NCBI GenBank assembly: GCA_947625775.1 | Contig: CANQPM010000018.1 | Span: forward strand, 1-62,385 | Length of the DNA stretch: 62,385 nt | Direction: 5' to 3' | Source of the DNA: an uncultured Lachnospiraceae bacterium | GTDB lineage: Bacteria > Bacillota > Clostridia > Lachnospirales > Lachnospiraceae | Shown: piece after piece, positions 7,976 to 21,809 of the stretch | Layout: every line of letters begins with the position of its first letter | Numbering within the stretch: the first letter of the stretch is position 1 | The notes under the pieces: generated by a model | What the model saw: the letters and a program-made list of their open reading frames with translations, nothing else | Told to the model about the DNA's origin: nothing | Database searches by the model: none | Translations under genes and position numbers: made by a program

Positions 7976-9136
7976 TTAATCTTTCTTCTGCCTTGCGCGC
8001 ATCTGCTTTGGCGTAACCCCGTACATCTGCCTGAACATATGGTAAAAGTGGGTGCGGTTTGTAAATCCAAGCCTTGCTATAATATCCCCTATACTGTCGC
8101 CTGTATCCGCAAAATCCTTCGCCGCCCTTTTTAGGCAGAATGTCATTGCATAGTCATAAAGACACATGCCTGAATACTTATTGACAATATGATTTATATG
8201 ATGCCCGCTGTAGTTCAGGCGCTTTTCAAGCTCCGCCCTCGTAATCCTGCCGTTGCACTCCTCCAGAAGCCGCCCGATGCGCATAAACAGGAGAAAATCT
8301 CCGCCATAATCAAGCGTCACTCTTGTATGGTGATAATTGGAGGGGCTGCTTAAGGCTCCAAGAAACCCGCACATTAAGCTGTCCATTTTAAGCGCTGCCC
8401 CAAAGCTGGGAAAAAGCAGGGTTAAAATCATATCTTCGGCAATGTCGCGCATCTTAACCCCTATCTTTTCCTGCTCCTGCACTGTGGGAATAAAATCAAG
8501 GTATTCTTTTTTGAACGCGCCCTTGTCATTGTCAATGTCCGCCATAACAAAGCTGTACAATTCACTGTCCAAAAAAGCTTTCTCCTCATTAAACGCGGCA
8601 TTTTGGAAGTACATAAAAAGCTTTTTCACATAGTCTACGGACAAACCGATGAAAATTACCCTCGACTCCGTAAGAAAATTTTCATAATGGCGCAGATTCC
8701 TGTTAAGCAGGCAGCAGTCGCCCGCGGTATATAGGTAGCTTTTATTTTCTATCCGCTGCACTACTGTCCCGCTCAAAATCATCATAATCTCAAAATAATT
8801 ATGGAAATGCGGCGCCGCCTCGTGGAAATGGTGATTATGCAAATCATATGTTTCCTGACAGAAAAAAGTATCTTTAGCCGACAGCGATATGGAGTTTAAG
8901 TAGTCATCGCTTGAAGTGCCGCTGCAATATTCATACGTGACCTGATACGGCGAATTAATATTGAACAATGCCCCAAACTCACTTTTGGCATTGTCAATTT
9001 TCAGCGGAGATTTTGATGTGTCCGTCTCATAATAATCCAGCGAACCTGATACGCCGCGCAGGGACTTTTTATTTTCCATAATCACGTACCCCGTTTCTTC
9101 AAGATTTGACCATGCAAGGCCTTTTATTTTGTCCAA
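7976..9136 (-). CDS. AraC-family transcriptional regulator
   Basis: 386 aa from a TTG start at 9136; an ATG at 9079 (MENKKSLRG) is an equally possible start. A cupin-like sensor region sits in the N-terminal half (HEAAPHFHNYFEIMMILSG is typical of AraC cupins). The last ~100 residues carry two helix-turn-helix motifs, ending in DIIARLGFTNRTHFYHMFRQ and YGVTPKQMR, the hallmark of AraC/XylS DNA-binding domains. It is divergent from the GH53 galactanase/ABC locus and probably activates it in response to a sugar. A good promoter for it lies at 9226-9254. Confidence 0.92.
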   Translation of the reverse strand: MDKIKGLAWSNLEETGYVIMENKKSLRGVSGSLDYYETDTSKSPLKIDNAKSEFGALFNINSPYQVTYEYCSGTSSDDYLNSISLSAKDTFFCQETYDLHNHHFHEAAPHFHNYFEIMMILSGTVVQRIENKSYLYTAGDCCLLNRNLRHYENFLTESRVIFIGLSVDYVKKLFMYFQNAAFNEEKAFLDSELYSFVMADIDNDKGAFKKEYLDFIPTVQEQEKIGVKMRDIAEDMILTLLFPSFGAALKMDSLMCGFLGALSSPSNYHHTRVTLDYGGDFLLFMRIGRLLEECNGRITRAELEKRLNYSGHHINHIVNKYSGMCLYDYAMTFCLKRAAKDFADTGDSIGDIIARLGFTNRTHFYHMFRQMYGVTPKQMRARQKKD

Positions 9137-9175
9137 ATATGTTACAAATTTCTCACATGCTAACCGTTTATGACA

Positions 9176-9205
9176 TTGCGCCTAATTGTTGAAATTGCCT
9201 ATAAT
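9176..9205 (+). promoter_or_regulatory. Possible promoter of the GH53/sugar ABC operon
   Basis: A consensus -10 TATAAT (9200-9205) is preceded at 18 bp by a poor -35 TTGCGC (9176-9181). A weak -35 is what an activator-dependent promoter would show, consistent with control by the divergent AraC protein. The leader to the GH53 ATG would be about 80 nt. Confidence 0.5.
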
Positions 9206-9225
9206 TTATTAAAGACTTACAAAAT

Positions 9226-9254
9226 ATTATACACATTCGCACAAAAAAAGTAAA
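9226..9254 (-). promoter_or_regulatory. Probable sigma-A promoter of the AraC-type regulator
   Basis: On the minus strand TTTACT (9254-9249) is followed after 17 bp by a consensus TATAAT (9231-9226). Transcription would start near 9219, about 80 nt before the TTG start. The 153-bp gap to the divergent galactanase gene must hold the regulator's operators as well. Confidence 0.7.
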
Positions 9255-9289
9255 TTATTTTAAAAATTTATAATGATAGGAGGGAATTT

Positions 9290-10315
9290 ATGGAAAATGA
9301 AATTGCGCTTGGCGTAGATCTTGGCTGGGTAAGCCAGCTTGAAGCGCGCGGGGTGCGGTGGGTTGACGACAGCAATAATCCGATAGATCCGATACTCGCG
9401 GCAAAGGAAAAAGGGGCAAATACGGTCAGGCTCCGCGTCTTTGTAAATCCGCCAGACAGCGCTCTCTGGACAAAAAAAGACGGTACTGTCTGCATGCTCG
9501 GCTTTGCCGATGCCCAAAGCGTGCTGCAAATGTCGCTTAGGGCAAAAAACGCGGGAATGAAGCTTATGATAGACTTCCACTACAGCGACCATTTTGCAGA
9601 TCCGCAGTATCAGGACATTCCCGAAGGCTGGAAGAATGACGACATAAACGGATTATGCGAAAAGGTCAGGCAGCATACGAAAGACGTGCTCGGACTGCTC
9701 GCAAATAGCGGTATATACCCCGAATGGGTACAGGTGGGAAATGAAATCAACCCTGGTATTCTGCTGCCTGTCGGAGATATCAAAAATTTACCCGAAAATC
9801 TGGCGCTTTTGCTTAACGCAGGGTACGATGCCGTAAAAGAATGCTGCCCTGACACAAAGGTAGTGACACATATCGCGTGCGTACATTCAAAAAAATGGTG
9901 CGATCCGTTTTTCACCACGTTTTTTGAAAAAGGCGGAAAAACTGACATTTTAGGCTTTTCTTATTATCCGTACTGGTATCGCATGTTTTCAAACGCAAAT
10001 GACTGTGACCTGTTTTACAATCCGCTGATATATTATTCGCAAAAATACAACAAGCCCGTCATGGTATGCGAAGTGGGAGGACCTCAGACAGAAGCAGAAG
10101 AAACCTACAATCTGCTCTTAAATACCATAGAGGCTGTAAAGCAAGTGCCGAATCATCAAGGCGTGGGCGTATTTTACTGGGAGCCTGAAGTCGGGGCGGA
10201 GCTGCTGCCCGACAGGTATCCTCTTGGCGCGGCGCTTCCCGTACCTGAAATATCAGAAAATACCCTGCGCTACACAAAAGCGCTCTCTGCGTACCGCGAC
10301 GCATTCATAAAATAA
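9290..10315 (+). CDS. GH53 endo-beta-1,4-galactanase (arabinogalactan endo-galactosidase), cytoplasmic
   Basis: 341 aa with GH53 signatures throughout: GVDLGWVSQLE at the N-terminus, NTVRLRVFVNPP, MIDFHYSDHFADPQ, then the acid/base Glu in VGNEIN (E152) and the nucleophile in VCEVGG (E261). The enzyme class cleaves beta-1,4-galactan side chains of pectin. There is no signal peptide: the mature fold begins within the first ten residues. It therefore should act inside the cell on imported galacto-oligosaccharides, fitting the ABC importer genes directly downstream. The ribosome-binding site TAGGAGGG is strong. First gene of a four-gene unit opposite an AraC-type regulator. Confidence 0.92.
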   Translation: MENEIALGVDLGWVSQLEARGVRWVDDSNNPIDPILAAKEKGANTVRLRVFVNPPDSALWTKKDGTVCMLGFADAQSVLQMSLRAKNAGMKLMIDFHYSDHFADPQYQDIPEGWKNDDINGLCEKVRQHTKDVLGLLANSGIYPEWVQVGNEINPGILLPVGDIKNLPENLALLLNAGYDAVKECCPDTKVVTHIACVHSKKWCDPFFTTFFEKGGKTDILGFSYYPYWYRMFSNANDCDLFYNPLIYYSQKYNKPVMVCEVGGPQTEAEETYNLLLNTIEAVKQVPNHQGVGVFYWEPEVGAELLPDRYPLGAALPVPEISENTLRYTKALSAYRDAFIK

Positions 10316-10355
10316 TGTAAAAATATTGTCATAAATAATGGAAAGAGGGGTAAAA

Positions 10356-11300
10356 ATGGCAAACAAGACCACAAACAAACCACCGAAAACGCCGTTTCTC
10401 AAAACGGCGCGCAAACATTGGATGCTGCTTTTGATGCTTGCTCCAGCGGTCATATATGTACTGGTATTTTCATACATACCGATGACAGGCATTGTGCTTG
10501 CTTTTAAAAATTATCAATATTCTGGCGGCATCTACGGCTCTCCCTGGAACGGGCTTAGCAATTTCAAGGCGCTTCTTACGGCAGGAAAGCTCTGGCAGGT
10601 AACGCGAAACACATTTCTCTATAATGTGGCATTTATCTTCCTCGGCGTAATCTTTGAGATGGGCAGCGCCATTCTCCTAAACGAACTGCTGAGTAAAATC
10701 TTTAAAAAAATAACGCAGTCGCTTATGTTTCTCCCTTACTTTATAAGCTGGGTTGTAGCAGGCGCGATTATGTACAACATCTTCAATTATGAGCGCGGCG
10801 TTTTCAACCATATATTAAATGCTTTCGGCGCAGGCTCATTTGACCTTTACAATACGCCAGACGCATGGCCATTTGTAATTATTTTCCTAAAGCTTTGGAA
10901 ACAGACAGGATACGGCTCCATAGTATATCTAGCGGCTATCACAGGGCTTGACCAGGAAATGTTTGAGGCGGCATCCATTGATGGAGCATCAGCATGGCAG
11001 AAAATACGCTACCTCACAATCCCCTCGCTTGTCCCGACAATGATGATTTTAGTTTTAATGGCGATTGGAAATATTTTCAGGGGCGATTTCGGGCTTTTCT
11101 ACCAGACAGTAAGAAGCAGCGCGCTGCTGGAGCCTTCGACGAACGTAATCGACACGTATGTATTCAGGCTGCTGATAGACAACGGCAATATCGGGGTTTC
11201 CGCCGCGGCAGGACTTTATCAGTCGGTACTGTGCTTTATAACGATTAATATCTGCAATACGCTTGTCAAAAGGGCAAATCCTGATTACGCGCTTTATTAA
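10356..11300 (+). CDS. Sugar ABC transporter permease, LplB type
   Basis: 314 aa from the ATG at 10356, which has GAGGGG in front; the ATG at 10338 lies within that ribosome-binding region and is less likely. Six membrane helices, with the binding-protein-dependent permease loop EAASIDGASAWQKIRYLTIP (about 220-240) that contacts the ATPase. The N-terminal AFKNYQYSGGIYGSPWNGLSNF pattern is typical of LplB/YteP-like permeases for oligosaccharides. Second gene of the galactan unit; no ATPase is encoded here, so a shared MsmK-type ATPase elsewhere is expected. Confidence 0.93.
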   Translation: MANKTTNKPPKTPFLKTARKHWMLLLMLAPAVIYVLVFSYIPMTGIVLAFKNYQYSGGIYGSPWNGLSNFKALLTAGKLWQVTRNTFLYNVAFIFLGVIFEMGSAILLNELLSKIFKKITQSLMFLPYFISWVVAGAIMYNIFNYERGVFNHILNAFGAGSFDLYNTPDAWPFVIIFLKLWKQTGYGSIVYLAAITGLDQEMFEAASIDGASAWQKIRYLTIPSLVPTMMILVLMAIGNIFRGDFGLFYQTVRSSALLEPSTNVIDTYVFRLLIDNGNIGVSAAAGLYQSVLCFITINICNTLVKRANPDYALY

Positions 11301-11320
11301 AGGCAGAATGGAGGTTTATT

Positions 11321-12214
11321 ATGCCAGTTAAAAGAAAAATAGGAAAAGACGTGCTTTCCGTAAATATTGTGGGCGGCATCTTAATCGGTCTGTTCGCGCT
11401 TGTCTGCCTCATGCCGTTTTACCTTATAATCATTGCGTCTTTCACAGAAGAAACTTCACTTATAAGAAACGGATATCCGCTTATACCAACTGACTTCAGC
11501 ATACAAAGCTATCTGTTATGCCTTAAAAACCCTATAGCCATAGTCCGCGCATATGGCACGACAATAAGCGTTACCCTGATTGGCACGTCGCTTTCAGTCT
11601 TTCTCGCAACCATGACAGGCTATGTACTCTCGCGCAAGGACTTTCCGTGGAGAAACCAGTTTTCGTTCTTCTTTTTCTTCACTACGCTTTTCAGCGGAGG
11701 GCTTGTTCCCTGGTATATGCTCTGCGTGCGTTACCTTCACTTTAAAAATTCGTACATTGGGCTTATCCTGCCGCTTATGTTTTCCGTATGGAATATGATT
11801 ATCGCCAAATCCTTTATGGCAGGAATACCTGCGGAAATAAGCGAATCCGCCAAAATAGACGGCGCAAATGACATTACAATTTTTATAAAGCTCATTCTCC
11901 CCTTAAGCAAGCCTCTTTTGGCTACTCTCGGGCTTTTCGCGGCGCTCGCGTACTGGAATGACTGGTACAACTGTATGCTCTATGTCACAGATGAAAATAT
12001 GTTTACGCTGCAGTATTACCTGCAGCGCGTACTCGGCAGCGCCGAAGCCATGCGCATTGTGGCGGAAAAATCGGGAATGGCTTTGCCAAGCGTACCCCTT
12101 GAAAGCATGAAAATGGCAATGACCGTAATTGCCACAGGTCCTATCGTATTGCTGTACCCGTTTGTACAAAGATATTTTGTAAAGGGCCTTACAATCGGCG
12201 CCGTAAAGGGCTGA
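11321..12214 (+). CDS. Sugar ABC transporter permease, YtcP type
   Basis: 297 aa, six membrane helices. The EAA-like loop is EISESAKIDGANDITIFIKL (about 170-190), and the C-terminus PFVQRYFVKGLTIGAVKG is the standard ending of MalG/YtcP-like permeases. It pairs with the preceding LplB-type permease; the spacing is 20 bp with a GGAGG site. Substrate is inferred from the neighbouring GH53 enzyme: galactan-derived oligosaccharides. Confidence 0.93.
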   Translation: MPVKRKIGKDVLSVNIVGGILIGLFALVCLMPFYLIIIASFTEETSLIRNGYPLIPTDFSIQSYLLCLKNPIAIVRAYGTTISVTLIGTSLSVFLATMTGYVLSRKDFPWRNQFSFFFFFTTLFSGGLVPWYMLCVRYLHFKNSYIGLILPLMFSVWNMIIAKSFMAGIPAEISESAKIDGANDITIFIKLILPLSKPLLATLGLFAALAYWNDWYNCMLYVTDENMFTLQYYLQRVLGSAEAMRIVAEKSGMALPSVPLESMKMAMTVIATGPIVLLYPFVQRYFVKGLTIGAVKG

Positions 12215-12288
12215 ACAGTTCATAAGCATTTGTATGCTTACGATAAACTTTTGGTTTGTATTATTTCTTAAAACAAGGAGGAAACAAA

Positions 12289-13950
12289 ATGAAAAAGAAA
12301 AAACTCACCTCATTAATCTTAGCCGCCTGCTTGACCTTAACCGCCCTTACAGGCTGCGGCAGTTCTTCAAATGACGCGCCCGCCGCAGACACCGCAGCGA
12401 ATACGTCAGCGGCAAATTCGTCGGATTCAGCAGATTCTACGGCATCGGCTGATATTTCTGCGGCTCTTGACGCCCTGCCTGCCGCAGTCGGGGAAGGCAC
12501 AATCACGGCTACCCCTGAAATGTATGCAAACACGGATTTAAGCAATCCATACACGGTAAATATGTACCTTATCGGCGACACGCCAAATGACTGGGACAGA
12601 GTGCTTGAACTTACGAACAAATATCTTGAACCGTTTAACACACAGCTTGCCGTTACTTTTATGAGCTGGAGCGACTACCAGACAATGTATTCGCTTGTCC
12701 TGGCGGGAGGAGAGCAGGTTGACTTAATATTCACGGCGCCGTGGTGCTATATGTACAGCGAAGCTCCAAAAGGCTCCTTTTATGTATTGACCGATGATTT
12801 TATCGCCGACCATATGCCGCTTGCAAACAAGTATCAGGATAAGGAAAGCTGGGACGAGACAACAATTTCGGGACAGACTGTGGCCGTTCCCGCAAACCAG
12901 GCGCAGGCAATGGGCAAGATTGTCGCAATCCGCCAGGATATTGCCGAAAAATACGGCATCAATGAACTGAAAAACTGGGAAGACTATATGAATTATATGC
13001 AGACAGTCGCAAAGAATGAAACGCCTGAAAGCGGCATCTATGCTGAGGCGGCGTCTGGTGACAACAATGAGCTTTGGGACGTTTACCGCCAGCAGTATGA
13101 CACATTTTTGGCGCTTGACAGCGATTATCTTGACATGATATATGAATATAATGGTTCCATTCCTTCTCAGGACGATATAAAGATTGCCTATGATACCGAT
13201 TATTTCCGCAGCTATGCGCATGACATGAAAACTTTGGCTGACGCAGGCTGCTGGAGCAGGAGCGCGCTCAACGAAACAGTAACTGATGATGATGCTTTCG
13301 GGGCTTTGCAGGGCGCTTCAATCGCTTGGAACGGCTCTGTATTTACATATATGGAACAGGCTGAGCAGACAGAAGGCGTAAAGTGCATGGCATATGATTT
13401 GACTACAGACCATTTTGTAGGATGCGAAGCGTTTTCAAACAATGATATGGCAATCGCGGCAGGCTCTAAAAATCCCGAACGCGCGGCAATGGTGCTTGAC
13501 CTTATTAAGTTTGATACGTATTTAAACAGGCTCTTGATCCTCGGTATTGAGGGAGAGCATTACAGCCTTGATGATGAAGGATATTATACGGAGCTCGAAA
13601 AATCAGCGGATTATGCGGCATTTGCAATCTCAGCATCATGGGCAATAAAGAACGGGGACTTAAACGAAGCAGGCGTAAGCGAACGCGAAAAGAAAATTAC
13701 GGATGCATGGGCAGAGCGCGTGGAAAATAATCCTACGATTACATTCGTATTTGATGACACAAGTGTCAGTTCTTATACGGCATCAGTAAAGATGGTGCTT
13801 GACAACTATGTGCCGATGCTTGAGCTTGGGCTTGTCGATGATGTCGATGCAACGCTTGATGAAATGATGCAGAAATGTTATGACGCGGGTTTGCAGGAGG
13901 TTTATGACGAATTTTTCCGCCAGTATAATGAATGGGCGGCGACGAGATAA
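12289..13950 (+). CDS. Sugar ABC transporter substrate-binding lipoprotein (DUF3502-like/LplA type)
   Basis: 553 aa from the ATG at 12289 behind AAGGAGG; an upstream TTG would add 11 unlikely residues. A lysine-rich signal peptide ends in the lipobox LTGC (Cys at about 22), followed by a Ser/Ala/Asp-rich linker to about 60, so it is a membrane-anchored lipoprotein. The body shows family-1 solute-binding features: NPYTVNMYLIGDTPNDWDRV, a long middle region and NDMAIAAGSKNPERAAMVLDLI. It is the receptor of the galactan oligosaccharide importer whose two permeases lie upstream. A strong terminator follows. Confidence 0.92.
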   Translation: MKKKKLTSLILAACLTLTALTGCGSSSNDAPAADTAANTSAANSSDSADSTASADISAALDALPAAVGEGTITATPEMYANTDLSNPYTVNMYLIGDTPNDWDRVLELTNKYLEPFNTQLAVTFMSWSDYQTMYSLVLAGGEQVDLIFTAPWCYMYSEAPKGSFYVLTDDFIADHMPLANKYQDKESWDETTISGQTVAVPANQAQAMGKIVAIRQDIAEKYGINELKNWEDYMNYMQTVAKNETPESGIYAEAASGDNNELWDVYRQQYDTFLALDSDYLDMIYEYNGSIPSQDDIKIAYDTDYFRSYAHDMKTLADAGCWSRSALNETVTDDDAFGALQGASIAWNGSVFTYMEQAEQTEGVKCMAYDLTTDHFVGCEAFSNNDMAIAAGSKNPERAAMVLDLIKFDTYLNRLLILGIEGEHYSLDDEGYYTELEKSADYAAFAISASWAIKNGDLNEAGVSEREKKITDAWAERVENNPTITFVFDDTSVSSYTASVKMVLDNYVPMLELGLVDDVDATLDEMMQKCYDAGLQEVYDEFFRQYNEWAATR

Positions 13951-15844: not shown

Positions 15845-15885
15845 AAAAAGCTTTATGCCTCCCACTGGAAGCATAAAGCTTTTTT
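15845..15885 (-). terminator. Intrinsic terminator of the opp operon
   Basis: A perfect 14-bp stem, AAAAAGCTTTATGC (15845-15858) against GCATAAAGCTTTTT (15871-15884), with a 12-nt loop and U-run on both strands. It lies just downstream of the binding-protein gene. Confidence 0.88.
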
Positions 15886-15918: not shown

Positions 15919-17715
15919 TTATCTGCCAAACTGAGCGTCATTGTTGCCGCTGTCTGTTGTCCACATCTCAAGCATGTTGATAGGATCGTTGAAGTCTGCA
16001 AGCCAGCCGTTACGCGCTATATCGTAGTTGCCTGACTTTCTCTCCTCGAGGAATACGTTCCAGTCAACAGTCTTGATTGTCATGTTGATGCCGATTGCAG
16101 CAAAATCCTGCTGAAGTGACTCAGCGATTGCTACGTGGCCTGTACCCTCGTTTGTAAGGTACTCAAACGTGATAGGCGTAGAGTCTGAAAGCATATTGTC
16201 GTCTGTAAACTCATAGCCTGCGCTCTTTAAGAGCTCAACGGCCTGCTCTAAGTTCTCGTCAAGCGCATAGGGATCAAAGTAACCCTCTGTATCAGCGTTA
16301 GGATATGTGTAAGCATCATCATTTGCCTTGAATACGCCGCCGTTGCCGTCAGCCATACCTGCAGGAATAAATGTGTTTGCGGGCTGCTGGCCTGTCTGAC
16401 CGATATTTTCAACGATGTAGTCACGGTCTACAAGGAGCGCAAATGCACGGCGCATAGCGTTTGCCTGCGCGGGTGTCTTGCCCTCAAAAAGCGGGCTCTT
16501 TACGTTGAAGCTTACATAGTATGTGCCAAGGTTGTCAACAATGTGGAACTCAGGGTTGTCAAGCAGCGCCTGAATTTCATCTGTAGGAACAGTATCAGCA
16601 AAATCAAGGTCGCCTGCGTTGTATGCAGCATAGATAGCCGTATCGTCAGCGCTCAGCATGAAGTGGATTGTCTCTACCTTGACATCATCTGCCCTGTGGT
16701 AGTTAGGGTTCTTTACATAAGTCATTGACTCGTCATGTACCCACTCAGAAAGAGTGTATGCGCCGTTGCTTACGAAACCAGCCTCCTGGCACCAAGCGCC
16801 AGGATTTGTCTGCCAGTCTGCAGCGCCCTCAACCTCTGACTGCTTTACAGGATAGTAAGCAGGGAATGCCAAAAGGTCAAGGAAGTAAGCGCAGGGAGCG
16901 TTAAGCACGATTGTAAGCGACTGTCCGTCCTCGCTTGCAGTAACATTAAGAGTGCCATCATCGTTTGTCGCGATTGCGTCAAACATATATGCATAGTCTG
17001 CAGCCGTCTCGGGAGCTACCGCACGGTTCCATGAATATACGAAATCGTTTGCATTAAGCTCTGAGCCGTCAGACCATTTAAGGTCGGGAAGCAAGTTTAC
17101 GGTATATGTCAAGCCGTCATCACTTACCGTGTAATCAGCAGCCAAATCAGGCTGTAATGTAGCGTTTGAATCATAAGTATAAAGACCTGCGAAGCTGTTT
17201 ACCGCAAGGCACGCGCCGTCAACTGAGCTGTTGAGCGCGGGATCAAGGTAATCAGGCTCAGACGCAAGATTGATTCTCAAAGTATCTGAGTCAGTCTCAG
17301 CGAACTGGAAATACTTAAATCCGTATAAGTTAGAGTAAATGTTTGAAACATTCGGTTTCTGTAAATAAATGTCATTGTAGTAATAGAGGGGCAGGAGCGC
17401 GCCTGTCTCCATAAGGATATCCTCCGCGTCATGCATAAGCGCCTCACGAGCCGCATAATCCGTGGTAGTCTTAATCTCCTTAATCAAGTCGTTGTAGCTC
17501 TCCCAATCAGAAGGGTCAACCGCCTCTGCGCTCTCGTCAGCGCCCGCTTCTGTTGAAGCCTCAGTAGATGCCTCTGTTGAAGCTGTGTCTGCTGTGCTTG
17601 TTTCTGCAGCGCTATCTGTTGTAGACGTGTCCGCTGGCGCATTTGAGCCGCCGCATGCAGACAGTGTAGTTACAGCCAAAGTAAGCGCTAAAAACATTGC
17701 TGTCTTTCTTTTCAT
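15919..17715 (-). CDS. oppA: Oligopeptide ABC transporter binding lipoprotein, apparently circularly permuted
   Basis: 598 aa. The signal peptide ends in lipobox LSAC (Cys21), followed by a Ser/Thr/Glu/Ala linker with STEA repeats to about 65. Residues about 70-139 (WESYNDLIKEIKTTTDYAAR, then ALLPLYYYNDIYLQKPNV, then NLYGFKYFQF) are the segment that normally forms the extreme C-terminus of OppA/DppA proteins. The usual N-terminus of the mature fold (TLRINLASEPDYLDPAL) begins only at about 145. The protein then ends abruptly at NNDAQFGR, exactly where the relocated segment would follow in ordinary family members. Nothing resembling the missing tail is found after the stop. It belongs to the opp operon and delivers peptides to OppBC. 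The ribosome-binding site is GGAGG. Confidence 0.9.
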   Translation of the reverse strand: MKRKTAMFLALTLAVTTLSACGGSNAPADTSTTDSAAETSTADTASTEASTEASTEAGADESAEAVDPSDWESYNDLIKEIKTTTDYAAREALMHDAEDILMETGALLPLYYYNDIYLQKPNVSNIYSNLYGFKYFQFAETDSDTLRINLASEPDYLDPALNSSVDGACLAVNSFAGLYTYDSNATLQPDLAADYTVSDDGLTYTVNLLPDLKWSDGSELNANDFVYSWNRAVAPETAADYAYMFDAIATNDDGTLNVTASEDGQSLTIVLNAPCAYFLDLLAFPAYYPVKQSEVEGAADWQTNPGAWCQEAGFVSNGAYTLSEWVHDESMTYVKNPNYHRADDVKVETIHFMLSADDTAIYAAYNAGDLDFADTVPTDEIQALLDNPEFHIVDNLGTYYVSFNVKSPLFEGKTPAQANAMRRAFALLVDRDYIVENIGQTGQQPANTFIPAGMADGNGGVFKANDDAYTYPNADTEGYFDPYALDENLEQAVELLKSAGYEFTDDNMLSDSTPITFEYLTNEGTGHVAIAESLQQDFAAIGINMTIKTVDWNVFLEERKSGNYDIARNGWLADFNDPINMLEMWTTDSGNNDAQFGR

Positions 17716-17764
17716 AATATTTCCTCCTTTTAAAACTTCCGTTTGGAATACAATGTATTTTTAG

Positions 17765-17782
17765 CAGATGTTTTCGCATCTG
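17765..17782 (-). other. Small hairpin between oppF and oppA
   Basis: CAGATG and CATCTG, six base pairs with a six-base loop, lie in the 111-bp gap. There is no U-run, so it is more likely an mRNA processing or stabiliser element that lets the binding protein be made in excess than a terminator. Confidence 0.4.
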
Positions 17783-17826
17783 TCAATACCAAATTTAAAA
17801 ATTTATTGTGTAAAAATTTGTAATGC

Positions 17827-18789
17827 CTATCTGTTGTGGCACGCCACCATATGCCCGCCGCCCTTGTCAGTAAGCGCAGGACAAGACTCCGCGCACTTGT
17901 CTGTCGCATAGCGGCATCTCGTGCGGAAAGCGCAGCCCGTAGGCATATTCATAGGGCTTGGCACATCGCCCGAAAGCACTATTCGCTGGCTTTTCTTGGC
18001 TGTAATCGGATCGGGTATGGGCACCGCGCTCAAAAGCGACTCCGTATATGGGTGAATAGGGTGGTCATAAACCTCGTCGGCATCTCCAATCTCAACCACC
18101 TTGCCAAGATACATGACCGCAATCCTATTTGAAATATGCCTTACCACAAGCAGGTCGTGCGCGATAAAAAGATACGCCACACCAAGCTTTTCCTGCAAAT
18201 CCTCAAACATATTTATAACCTGCGCCTGAATGGAAACGTCAAGCGCGCTAACAGCCTCGTCGCACACAATAAATTTAGGGTTCACCGCAAGCGCCCTCGC
18301 GATGCCGATACGCTGTCTTTGTCCGCCCGAAAACTCATGCGCATAACGCGTCGCATGCTCGGCGTTAAGCCCGACAAGCTCCATCAGCCCCAAAATCTTT
18401 TCGCGGCGCTCCTTCTTGTCGGCGTAAAGCTTATGTACGTCAAGCGGCTCGCCAATGATGTCCTCCACCGTCATTCGCGGATTAAGCGACGAATACGGAT
18501 CTTGGAAAACCATCTGCATATTCTTCCTGTGCTCAGCCATATTTTTGTCCGTTATAACCTCGCCATTGTACTTTACAGTGCCCGCCGTCGGCTCATAAAG
18601 CCTTAAAATAGAACGCCCTACCGTCGTCTTGCCGCAGCCCGACTCGCCTACAAGCCCTAAAGTCTCGCCCTCCTTTATGTTGAAGGTAACTCCGTCTACG
18701 GCTTTAAGCGGCGTAGTCTTGAAAAAGCCTGTCTTTATCGGAAAATACTGTTTTAAATCCTCAACCTCTATCAAATATTCACTGCTCAT
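17827..18789 (-). CDS. oppF: Oligopeptide ABC transporter ATP-binding protein OppF
   Basis: 320 aa. Walker [10 protein letters not shown] (about 48-56), signature LSGGQ-type [16 protein letters not shown] and Walker [13 protein letters not shown] are present. The N-terminal [20 protein letters not shown] is typical of OppF/DppF. The C-terminal oligopeptide domain has the Cys-rich motif ([15 protein letters not shown]) found in Opp ATPases, which may hold an Fe-S cluster in some members. Its ATG overlaps the stop of oppD by four bases, implying coupling. Energises peptide import with OppD. Confidence 0.96.
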
Positions 18790-19793
18790 CTGGCGCTTTC
18801 TCCCTTCTGTGCCTCATAAAGCTGCTTGTAAGCAAGCCAGCAGCACGAATAATGTCCGTCAGGCATCTGCACCTGCGGCGGAACCTCGGTCAGACAGATT
18901 TTCATTGCCTCGTCGCACCTTGCGCAGAACGCACAGCCCTTTGGCATGTTCAAAAGATTTATCGGCGTACCCGCAATCGGCACGAGACGCTCCTTGCTGC
19001 CGTCAGCCTTTGGTATGGAGCGAAGCAGACCTTTTGTATATTCATGGGCAGGTCTGTAAAAAATATCCTCCGCCGTGCCTCTCTCGCACACGCGCCCGCC
19101 ATACATAACAATAATCTCATCACACATATCCGCTATAACGCCCAAGTCATGCGTAACCATAATAATCGCCATTCCAAGCTTTTTCTGCAGCTCCTGCATA
19201 AGCTCCAGAATCTGCGCCTGTATCGTCACATCAAGCGCCGTAGTCGGCTCATCGGCTATAAGTATATCAGGCTCGCACGCAAGCGCCATCGCTATCATGA
19301 CACGCTGCCGCATACCGCCCGAAAGCTCATGAGGATATTGCTTGATACGCTTCTGCGGCTCGTTTACGCCTACAAGCTCGAGCATCTCGATCGCCCTGTC
19401 CTTTGCCTGTTTTTTGTCCTTGTCGGTGTGGAGCAGAATCGCCTCCATAAGCTGATTGCCTATCGTAAACACAGGATTAAGGCTCGTCATGGGATCCTGA
19501 AAAATAATGCTGCAGCACTTTCCCCTAAAGCCCTTCATCTGCTTCTTGTCAAACTTTGTGATGTCCTGTCCCTTGTAAAGCACCTCGCCGCTCACGATGC
19601 GCCCTGTCGATGCCAGAATCTGCATAATCGAATACGCCGTGACGCTCTTGCCAGAGCCCGACTCGCCTACAATGCCAAGTATCTTGCCAGGAGCCAGATT
19701 AAACGTCACTCCGTTTACAGCCTTCACCTCGCCCGAATCCGTAAAAAACGATGTATGTAAATCCTTTACCTGTAAAATATATTCTTCGCCCAT
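18786..19793 (-). CDS. oppD: Oligopeptide ABC transporter ATP-binding protein OppD
   Basis: 335 aa. Walker [10 protein letters not shown], signature [15 protein letters not shown], Walker [13 protein letters not shown] and the switch His in MVTHDLGV are all intact. The C-terminal Cys motif ([15 protein letters not shown]) marks it as the D-type Opp ATPase. It overlaps oppF by four bases and follows oppC after 18 bp, so all lie in one operon. Confidence 0.96.
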
Positions 19794-19811
19794 ATCTATC
19801 TTCCCTCCATT

Positions 19812-20882
19812 TTACTTTTTCAGCTTAGGATCAAACGCGTCCCTAAGCCCGTCGCCAAGCAGATTAAACGAAAGCACTATCAGACAGATAACTATTGAAG
19901 GGATTATCAGCTTGTACGGATAGCTCTGTAAGCCCTCGCGCGCGCTGTTTGCAAGGCTTCCGAGCGACGGCATCGGCGACTGTACGCCAAGTCCGATAAA
20001 GCTTAAGTAACTCTCCGTAAATATAGCCGACGGTATCTGCAGCGCGGTCGAAATAAAGATAACGCTTACGCAGTTGGGAATAATATGCTTTAATATAATC
20101 CTGCCGCTCTTTGCGCCAGTGGTCTTTGCCGCGAGGATATATTCGTTGTTTTTGATAGTAAGAATCTGTCCACGCACCAGACGCGCCATGCTTACCCAGT
20201 AAAGAAGTCCGTAAACTATGAAAAGCGAAATCATATTTACGCCAAGCTTCTGGAACACCGTGCCTTCAAGCAGCGGCTTTAATGTCTCGTCGAGCACTAC
20301 CGAAAGCAGGATTATGACAAGCATGTCAGGTAATGAATAGATTATATCGACAATCCTCATCATTATCAAATCGACCTTGCCGCCCATATATCCCGATATG
20401 CTGCCGTACAAAAGTCCTATCACCAAAACTATGATACTCGCAAACAGCCCTACCGCAAGCGACACACGCGTACCGTAAACCACACGTATGAAATAGTCGC
20501 GGCACATAGCGTCAGTGCCCATTATGTGAGGGAATACCTCGCCGCCCTGTTCTATGTATTTAAGCTCGTTTTCGGAATACTCAAAGGGCTTTAGGTTTTT
20601 CGCCGTTTTGTCACGCTTTCCGTTTACTGAAACAATCTCGGAATAGCTGTATGGCACTACATGGGGCGCTATGACAATTACGCCGACAATGAGCACCAGC
20701 ACTATGATACTCATAACCGCAAGCGGATTTTTCATAAGCTTTCTCATACCGTCCTTAAAAAAGGTGGTGGACTCGCTCATAACGTCCTGCTGCCGTTTTT
20801 CCTCCTCTGTAGCCTTTTCAAATTTTGAAAGGTCTATCTGTGCGCTGAAAATATTTTTAGAAACTGTTTTCTGCTCTGCCAC
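19812..20882 (-). CDS. oppC: Oligopeptide ABC transporter permease OppC
   Basis: 356 aa. A cytoplasmic N-terminal tail of about 55 residues precedes the first membrane helix, then an external loop with HIMGTDAMCRDYFIRVVYG, the conserved GTD motif before helix 2 of OppC proteins. The permease loop near AAKTTGAKSGRIILKHIIPN contacts the ATPases. The C-terminus LLGDGLRDAFDPKLKK is the standard OppC ending. Twelve base pairs follow oppB. Confidence 0.95.
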   Translation of the reverse strand: MAEQKTVSKNIFSAQIDLSKFEKATEEEKRQQDVMSESTTFFKDGMRKLMKNPLAVMSIIVLVLIVGVIVIAPHVVPYSYSEIVSVNGKRDKTAKNLKPFEYSENELKYIEQGGEVFPHIMGTDAMCRDYFIRVVYGTRVSLAVGLFASIIVLVIGLLYGSISGYMGGKVDLIMMRIVDIIYSLPDMLVIILLSVVLDETLKPLLEGTVFQKLGVNMISLFIVYGLLYWVSMARLVRGQILTIKNNEYILAAKTTGAKSGRIILKHIIPNCVSVIFISTALQIPSAIFTESYLSFIGLGVQSPMPSLGSLANSAREGLQSYPYKLIIPSIVICLIVLSFNLLGDGLRDAFDPKLKK

Positions 20883-20894
20883 GGTTCTTCCTCC

Positions 20895-21809
20895 TTAATC
20901 GTCAAGCTTAATTCTGGGATCGACTATACTGTAGACGATATCAGTTATAAGGTTCATAGTGACCATCAGAATAGCAAGGAACATTGTAGTCCCCATAATC
21001 ATAGTGTAGTCGCGGTTGTTTATGCTTGATATGAATTTAGAGCCAAGACCGCCGATTGTGAAAATATTCTCCACCACAAGGCTTCCCGTAATGATATAGG
21101 CAAGCATCGGTCCGATATATGTGATAACAGGGATAACCGCGTTTCTGAGCGCGTGCTTAAAGATAACCTTCCAGCCCGCCACGCCCTTCGCGTTTGCAGT
21201 CCTGATGTAGTCCTGTCCGAGCGCGTCAAGCATGCTCGTCTTTGTAAGACGCGTGATGTACGCCATAGGATAAAGCGAAAGCGCTATTACAGGGAGAGTA
21301 TAGTTTGTGTTCTCCACGCTCCACACGGGAATCCATTTGAGGGCAAGGCAGAACACATACAGCAGCACCGTAGCGAGCACGAAACTCGGCACAGCCGTAA
21401 ACAATGTCGTGAAAAATACGATAATTCGGTCAATCACAGTATTGCGCTTTAATGCGGCAAGGCTGCCAAGCACCACTCCGATAACGGCGGCAACGAGCGC
21501 CGCAAGCCCTCCAAGCTTTGCCGATATAGGGAAAGACTCGCCTATAATCGTGGAAATGCTTCTGCCGTTCTTTAAAGATACGCCTAAATCGCCTTTAAGA
21601 AAGTTCTTTAAATAGATAACAAACTGCTCTGGCACAGGCTTGTCAAGGTTATATCTTGCCTCAAGCACAAGCTGCACCTCCTTACTCGGCGCCTTCTCCG
21701 ACGCAAACGGCCCGCCCGGGATAGCGTTCATCGTAAAGAAAGTGATTGCCGCGATTATAAAAACTGTTACGATGGCGAGGATGATCCTCTTAATGATGTA
21801 TCTGTACAT
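20895..21809 (-). CDS. oppB: Oligopeptide ABC transporter permease OppB
   Basis: 304 aa, six membrane helices. The N-terminal RYIIKRIILAIVTVFIIAAITFF and NAIPGGPF are the classical OppB/DppB signatures; the C-terminus ends IVYSIVDPRIKLDD. The permease loop is RTANAKGVAGWKVIFKHALRN. First structural gene of the operon oppB-C-D-F-A on the minus strand, about 90 nt downstream of a leader hairpin. Confidence 0.95.
   Translation of the reverse strand: MYRYIIKRIILAIVTVFIIAAITFFTMNAIPGGPFASEKAPSKEVQLVLEARYNLDKPVPEQFVIYLKNFLKGDLGVSLKNGRSISTIIGESFPISAKLGGLAALVAAVIGVVLGSLAALKRNTVIDRIIVFFTTLFTAVPSFVLATVLLYVFCLALKWIPVWSVENTNYTLPVIALSLYPMAYITRLTKTSMLDALGQDYIRTANAKGVAGWKVIFKHALRNAVIPVITYIGPMLAYIITGSLVVENIFTIGGLGSKFISSINNRDYTMIMGTTMFLAILMVTMNLITDIVYSIVDPRIKLDD

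Follow-up and report, generated by a model that had tools for sequence, protein, structure and literature searches.

A circularly permuted OppA-type oligopeptide-binding lipoprotein in a Lachnospiraceae opp operon, and recurrent changes of chain order among its relatives

Results and discussion

An OppA-type gene with an unusual segment order closes an opp operon

The window analysed here, a stretch of 62,385 nucleotides from an uncultured Lachnospiraceae bacterium (contig CANQPM010000018.1), holds a gene for an OppA-type oligopeptide-binding lipoprotein whose chain is circularly permuted (Table 1). The gene is a single unbroken open frame of 598 amino acids (aa), found where a preliminary description of this DNA had placed it, and is the last of an oppB-C-D-F-A series that runs from 21809 down to 15919 and links it to oppBCDF (17827-21809); many relatives have the same gene order, with exceptions, and the names oppF, oppD, oppC and oppB are those we take to apply, oppF from sequence features. 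By eye, the lipoprotein signal ends in LSAC (aa 18-21), presumably a lipobox. After the linker the order is DWESYNDLIKEI...LYGFKYFQFAE (aa 70-140), then TDS, then DTLRINLASEPDYLDPAL... through NNDAQFGR. The stop is TAATAA and, in keeping with the preliminary description, the three coding-strand frames downstream of the gene hold no leftover tail and a terminator-like hairpin is present, which is missing from the output of a simple consensus terminator scan. The promoter-like site upstream is weak, with 15 such sites in the region against 9.5 expected.

Table 1. Features of the permuted gene and its operon in the window.
Feature	Coordinates	Strand	Details
Circularly permuted oligopeptide-binding lipoprotein gene, OppA-type, SBP_bac_5	15919..17715	-	598 aa
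Signal peptide and presumed lipobox LSAC	17653..17715	-	aa 1-21, Cys21; by eye in sequence
Low-complexity STEA linker	17509..17652	-	aa 22-69; sequence, model, dN/dS
Moved segment	17299..17508	-	aa 70-139; C-terminal end in ordinary OppA/DppE (8ay0 451-518)
Junction of old C-terminus and old N-terminus	17287..17298	-	aa 140-143, ETDS
Body	15922..17286	-	aa 144-598; canonical mature start through NNDAQFGR
D574	15994..15996	-	invariant across 51 aligned rows (window protein plus 50 permuted relatives)
Terminator-like hairpin	15845..15884	-	18 pairs, z -4.87; 3' of stop
Shine-Dalgarno AGGAGG of permuted gene	17723..17728	-	
Promoter-like site between oppF and permuted oppA	17757..17786	-	10/12 matches
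oppF-type ATPase gene	17827..18789	-	homologues found at relatives' loci
oppD-type ATPase gene	18786..19793	-	homologues found at relatives' loci
oppC-type permease gene	19812..20882	-	homologues found at relatives' loci
oppB-type permease gene	20895..21809	-	homologues found at relatives' loci

Each segment is present once, in swapped order

Comparison with PDB chains (phmmer) matched the protein to Bacillus subtilis DppE (8ay0) in two blocks of swapped order, with aa 144-592 aligned to residues 22-444 (183.9 bits) and aa 72-139 to residues 451-518 (33.6 bits; independent E-value, i-E, 1.5e-7), which bears out the earlier assignment of aa 70-139 to the family C-terminus. The same two swapped blocks were seen with B. 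subtilis OppA 8are (184.7 bits; 17.6 bits, i-E 0.011), and for two Gram-negative OppA sequences among the matches listed the second block alone was not significant (12.0 bits, i-E 0.53). A linear family hidden Markov model (HMM) needed two domains to cover the protein, columns 438-513 (94.7 bits) followed by columns 2-438 (656.2 bits), whereas a doubled, circular HMM took it in as one domain (769 bits; columns 438-952, or 515 columns on a circle of 514). Start and end thus both fall at column 438, each segment is present once with none missing or doubled, and NNDAQFGR stops at the column at which the moved segment begins. The old ends are joined and the new ends lie elsewhere, as in a natural circular permutant, and the canonical order of the four solved sequences with alignments among the matches listed is not that of the window protein. 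Its PF00496 match is above the gathering score (274.9 bits against a cut-off of 32.4; aa 187-592, profile 2-367 of 368), the NCBIfam OppA equivalog NF011684 was not reached (204.1 bits against 947), and all 11 NCBIfam matches lie far under cut-off. As the segment order lies outside the Pfam model, we file the protein as a permuted subgroup and not as an ordinary OppA. The swapped blocks, the doubled-profile circle and the oppBCDF neighbours support the proposal of the preliminary description that this is a genuine circular permutation which kept its signal peptide, its operon position and, as predicted by modelling, its fold.

Because aa 70-139 precede the PF00496 match, one could instead see them as an extra N-terminal domain, that is, a C-terminal-like segment added before a complete OppA. 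The body, however, stops at column 438 and lacks a C-terminal segment, which refutes this for the window protein, and no open frame at loci L001-L239 carries the segment at both ends; we give the extra-domain explanation practically no weight.

The window order recurs among relatives

We call the window order P1 and number loci with L and genomes with G. Nine of 60 genomes (the window's own included) carry P1, with identities of 76-100%. All nine are among the 36 genomes of the window's genus, in which six more yielded just a canonical relative (40-42% identity). A contig search gave 75 loci, comprising 65 P1, 5 canonical, 4 cut off at contig ends and 1 (L096) that is frame-split. Wider, overlapping samples, with no more than three candidates scored for each genome so that counts are lower bounds, gave at least 13 P1 genomes in the order sample (own genome and G384, with an internal stop, included; 114 of 392 genomes matched) and at least 3 in the class sample (own included; 120 of 391 matched), and in the phylum sample (137 of 398 matched) P1 was seen in the own genome only, among the matches listed. 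On the doubled profile there are 101 P1 frames (83 distinct), reaching down to 44% identity, which start at columns 422-441 and end at column 438 in 94, 439 in 3, 447 in 2 and earlier (348, 413) in 2. The permutation is real, as had been proposed, but not unique to this gene, since 65 of 75 loci and 9 of 60 genomes share it and three further cut points occur (below).

Some P1 members (such as L079, L108 and L110) have A-P-[DE]-W at the linker end, a motif that in canonical L117 and L118 sits between QLGK and the segment, and L091 retains a longer piece, AYSIDLTDIEGY...GTWAE, like the canonical loops of L070, L151 and L130. At L070:1-7587 a canonical oppA leads an oppA-B-C-D-F series with a permuted oppA behind it, the two lying on different branches. 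The contigs that carry the L058 P1 gene and the truncated relative L090 bear the titles Chloroflexi and Victivallales; trees place L058 among Bacillota sequences, so mis-binning is likely.

Besides the permuted gene, the window genome itself (G000; 3.75 Mb) has a single PF00496 match, which is canonical in order. By eye, positions 7976-13950 of the window look like a presumed galactan-use cluster, with an AraC-type regulator, a binding protein, two permeases of the sugar type and a gene that resembles those for galactanases.

Three further cut points occur in Bacillota

Part-wise and doubled profiles revealed three other single-circle orders in Bacillota relatives (P2, P3 and P4), each preceded by a signal peptide as judged by eye. 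Among the 231 frames that cover 400 or more columns, sorted by five start-column windows chosen by the analyst, there are 97 canonical (87 distinct), 101 P1 (83), 5 P2 (3), 13 P3 (7) and 12 P4 (8) frames, and three fall outside all windows: L172 and L135, canonical with odd starts, and truncated L089. P2 (L131-L133) has a FQVKAIDDKTLEV-like start at columns 108-109 and a GYAEAVGE-like end at column 110 or 117. P3 (L137, L138, the second copy in L168, L158, L162, L163 and L209) starts at columns 254-268 and ends at 257-259, and P4 (L157, L159-L161 and L226-L229) has a LPTLKLIYN-like start at columns 338-351 and ends at 341-343. Two of these, L209 (P3) and L228 (P4), form two domain pieces instead of one on the doubled profile. 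Contig ends truncate L083, L086, L089 and L090, which were left unclassified.

The part-wise rule had assigned the second copy in L168 to P4, which we dropped as the doubled profile gives P3. Split matches in G074, G199, G507, G448 and G777 were rejected as permutants, being canonical genes in which one stretch is enlarged or has diverged. At L168:447-12001 (G048) two P3 genes are each followed by their own oppB-C-D genes.

These distributions bear on whether the order might be an artefact of assembly or binning, with fragments of a canonical gene joined wrongly, as could be suspected from a window genome in 42 contigs whose named relatives are nearly all titled metagenome assemblies or uncultured bacteria. 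Against this, the gene has an intact open frame with signal peptide, Shine-Dalgarno and stop, the 83 distinct frames of the same order include unbroken genes on G372 and G413, each a genome in one contig, the same holds for the genomes of some other permutants (G747 for P3; G461 and G983 for P4), and relatives show silent-site divergence together with strong constraint. An artefact is thus exceedingly improbable.

Fold, selection and membrane tether

Residues 138-598 of a predicted model align to OppA 1ola 1-443, giving an OppA-like fold, and the 50 structures among the matches listed for the model are family 5 type proteins, as is the Pfam match. On this predicted model the fold would be kept, as the preliminary description proposed. 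In the model aa 1-63 have a predicted local distance difference test (pLDDT) score below 50, and the moved segment forms two helices and a 13-residue strand with block-mean pLDDT of 88-95, and is predicted to be folded and docked to the body. Ratios of nonsynonymous to synonymous substitution (dN/dS) against L004 are 0.14 for the linker and 0.06 for the moved segment, the latter of the same order as for the body, and the moved segment is therefore under purifying selection.

A segment that no longer completes the fold and serves instead as tether, spacer or inhibitor would fit its place directly after a long disordered linker and the longer linkers of P1 proteins, for which the median is 38 residues, taken over the 72 of 83 proteins that have a recognised lipobox; for canonical ones it is 20 (67 of 87). 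Such a role is very unlikely given the model confidence and strand of the segment and a constraint comparable to that of the body, and without the segment the fold would be short of a piece that complete canonical relatives keep.

D574 aligns with the Asp of CADYNEP in Escherichia coli OppA, which we take to be Asp419, a ligand of the peptide amino group, and is the one feature observed that relates to a putative oligopeptide-binding function. The window protein resembles canonical OppA, DppE and MppA (8are, 8ay0, 1ola and E. coli MppA 3o9p) in fold over aa 138-598, in this Asp and in operon partners, and differs from them in segment order, in the position of its termini and hence in that of its lipid tether. 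The preliminary description had both termini of the mature fold in domain I, which does not hold for the new ends: these lie outside it, with the cut at about residue 443 of OppA 1ola, presumably in domain III, so that the lipid tether would sit on a different lobe.

Two observations count against tethering as the only cause of permutation: canonical relatives such as L113 and L117 carry lipobox-like signals too, and a recognised lipobox is absent in four of the eight P4 permutants. L226-L229 are P4 permutants that have a signal peptide without a recognised lipobox, and permutation seems not confined to lipoproteins.

Chain order has changed more than once

A quick tree of 84 proteins (near-duplicates thinned from 225; L083, L086, L089, L090, L084 and L075 left out) requires at least 13 order changes among five states, with 7 for P1 (5 forced by starred branches), 3 for P3 (3 forced), 2 for P4 (2 forced) and 1 for P2. 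An earlier 87-row tree also gave 13, namely 7 for P1 and 2 each for P3, P4 and P2, and with the trees in disagreement P2 may have had one or two origins. A careful 47-row OppA tree puts the changes needed for P1 at 6 (bootstrap 5-95%: 6-6) and nests canonical L113/L114/L118, L117, L119 and L120/L121 among P1, with starred joining branches; a constraint that unites the 27 P1 proteins of the main clade costs 243 log units, and one that unites the 7 nested canonical proteins costs 206 (p 2.5e-5), this group having been named after a first tree. An OppC+D+F tree of 45 rows (85 thinned to 51, then the long or odd L184, L192, L168, L096, L190 and L191 removed) needs 5 changes for P1 and places canonical L177-L182 with P1 L079, L080 and L175 in one 100/100 clade inside P1 operons; it rejects a single P1 clade (log-likelihood difference 243, p 4e-9) and likewise a clade that unites the six canonical operons (p 7e-54). 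Frame-broken L096 was counted as P1 in the 87- and 84-row trees and is absent from the 47- and 45-row trees.

All nine oppA genes of this mixed-order clade lie behind oppC-D-F on the same strand, and a hand count gives at least 3 switches on the OppC+D+F tree or 4 on the 47-row tree. Relatives of opposite order at 64-68% identity share the same operon position, and in three pairs of opposite order body and moved segment are equally alike. The agreement of the OppA and OppC+D+F trees, with these equally alike pairs, indicates that order changed in place more than once. The canonical genes of the mixed clade are survivors or reversals, the latter being possible.

A single ancient P1 with vertical descent, in which the nested canonical genes are replaced paralogues or transfers, draws on the fact that P1 fills most of one strongly supported clade, and whole operons could have been transferred horizontally. 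It is nonetheless an unlikely account, given that both trees reject a single grouping of main-clade P1, that a joint clade for the nested canonical genes fails as well, and that L091, along with L096, falls outside the main clade. Both a single origin and a single reversal of P1 are rejected.

Proposed route and points that weigh against it

We consider it very probable that the gene product works as the oligopeptide-binding lipoprotein of an OppBCDF importer, its chain having been circularly permuted in place. The signal peptide, lipobox and linker would have kept their place at the front while the last ~70 residues came to stand between linker and body, with the old ends joined via a short link and the new ends in a loop just after QFG[R/K]. 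The folded receptor would be an ordinary two-lobed OppA clam, held to the membrane via its domain-III side and not domain I. Natural circular permutations are usually explained via duplication and deletion. Here an in-place route within oppB-C-D-F-A would most likely start with a tandem duplication of oppA, after which the front of copy 1 would be deleted, its tail fused to the body of copy 2, and copy 2 truncated, so that a complete receptor is retained at every intermediate. Changes of the same kind have recurred in Bacillota at four cut points, and one clade shows at least three switches of order between genes of the same operon slot. At L237, L238 and L239 canonical oppA genes stand in tandem, in arrays of 3, 3 and 4, and represent the raw material that a duplication-deletion route would require.

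Several observations count against this view. Docking of aa 70-139 is read from model confidence and secondary structure and not from coordinates, and among open frames of at least 60 aa at the surveyed loci (L001-L239) no duplication or fusion intermediate was seen, as none has more than 25 profile columns covered twice. Identity is uneven between body and moved segment in some pairs (L113/L079, 67/59; L209/L151, 73.5/65; L158/L019, 57/38; L157/L172, 54/40), and the trees disagree on the canonical gene of G273 (L119/L181), a conflict in which recombination may add or remove a switch. P1 stands in front of oppB in L176 and two other locus entries, has no opp gene directly beside it in L185, L186 and three other entries, and in L184 its operon partners are distant. 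Many relatives are metagenome assemblies, and three permutants (L096, G384 and G1158) have a frame break or stop.

For L096:5767-7604 (Bacilli, on a 2.08-Mb contig), signal peptide and moved segment are in one frame and the body in an overlapping other, which would be explained by a frameshift in the assembly or by a gene that is broken or split. In L140 (G384:C1:438000-442500) a P1 gene is interrupted by an in-frame TAG and in L230 (G1158:C1:898000-910000) a P4 gene by a TGA, both on single-contig genomes; these may be pseudogenes or errors.

Relation to known permuted proteins

As an SBP_bac_5 member, the window protein presumably belongs to cluster C of binding proteins. To our knowledge, most known natural circular permutations each go back to one old event and separate remote relatives, which makes their route and cost hard to study. 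The nearest precedent is TpMglB-2 (Tp0684), described as a naturally permuted, ligand-binding lipoprotein with a crystal structure, a cluster B glucose binder for which, with relatives in Gram-positive gut bacteria, the name 'Type Ic / Cluster Bc' is proposed (PMC4990184). Its authors suggest tethering as a possible reason and, with the permuted part only 13% identical to canonical sequence, allow for another gene as source (PMC4990184). Both are lipoprotein binding proteins of ABC importers with a natural circular permutation, but TpMglB-2 has a sugar-binding cluster B fold and one permutation type, as against SBP_bac_5 and four cut points here, where relatives of opposite order are 64-68% identical. 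Glycine-betaine- and molybdate-binding proteins, a permutation family in CPSARST, are likewise binding proteins related by circular permutation, though they are remote homologues (<24% identity) recognised by structure, not one orthologous operon gene (PMC2395249). The same paper lists beta-glucanases, swaposins and others, which belong to the same class of rearrangement as the window protein (PMC2395249).

A literature search, whose coverage of subscription journals is thin so that a prior report is possible, found no OppA-family permutation and no repeated switching at one syntenic gene with four cut points in one family; passages of PMC2588589, PMC11757225, PMC10326533 and PMC2265533 held nothing bearing on OppA permutation. 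Permuted binding proteins of other clusters are known already. A practical consequence is that linear family models split permuted proteins or cut them short.

For the family, we are inclined to see OppA-type chain order as a labile trait that switches repeatedly and probably reversibly, with selection tuning the exit point of the tether while the fold is unchanged. Close relatives of opposite order and four cut points together form a natural experiment on how permutation proceeds via working intermediates, and on whether the position of the tether on a binding protein matters for its importer.
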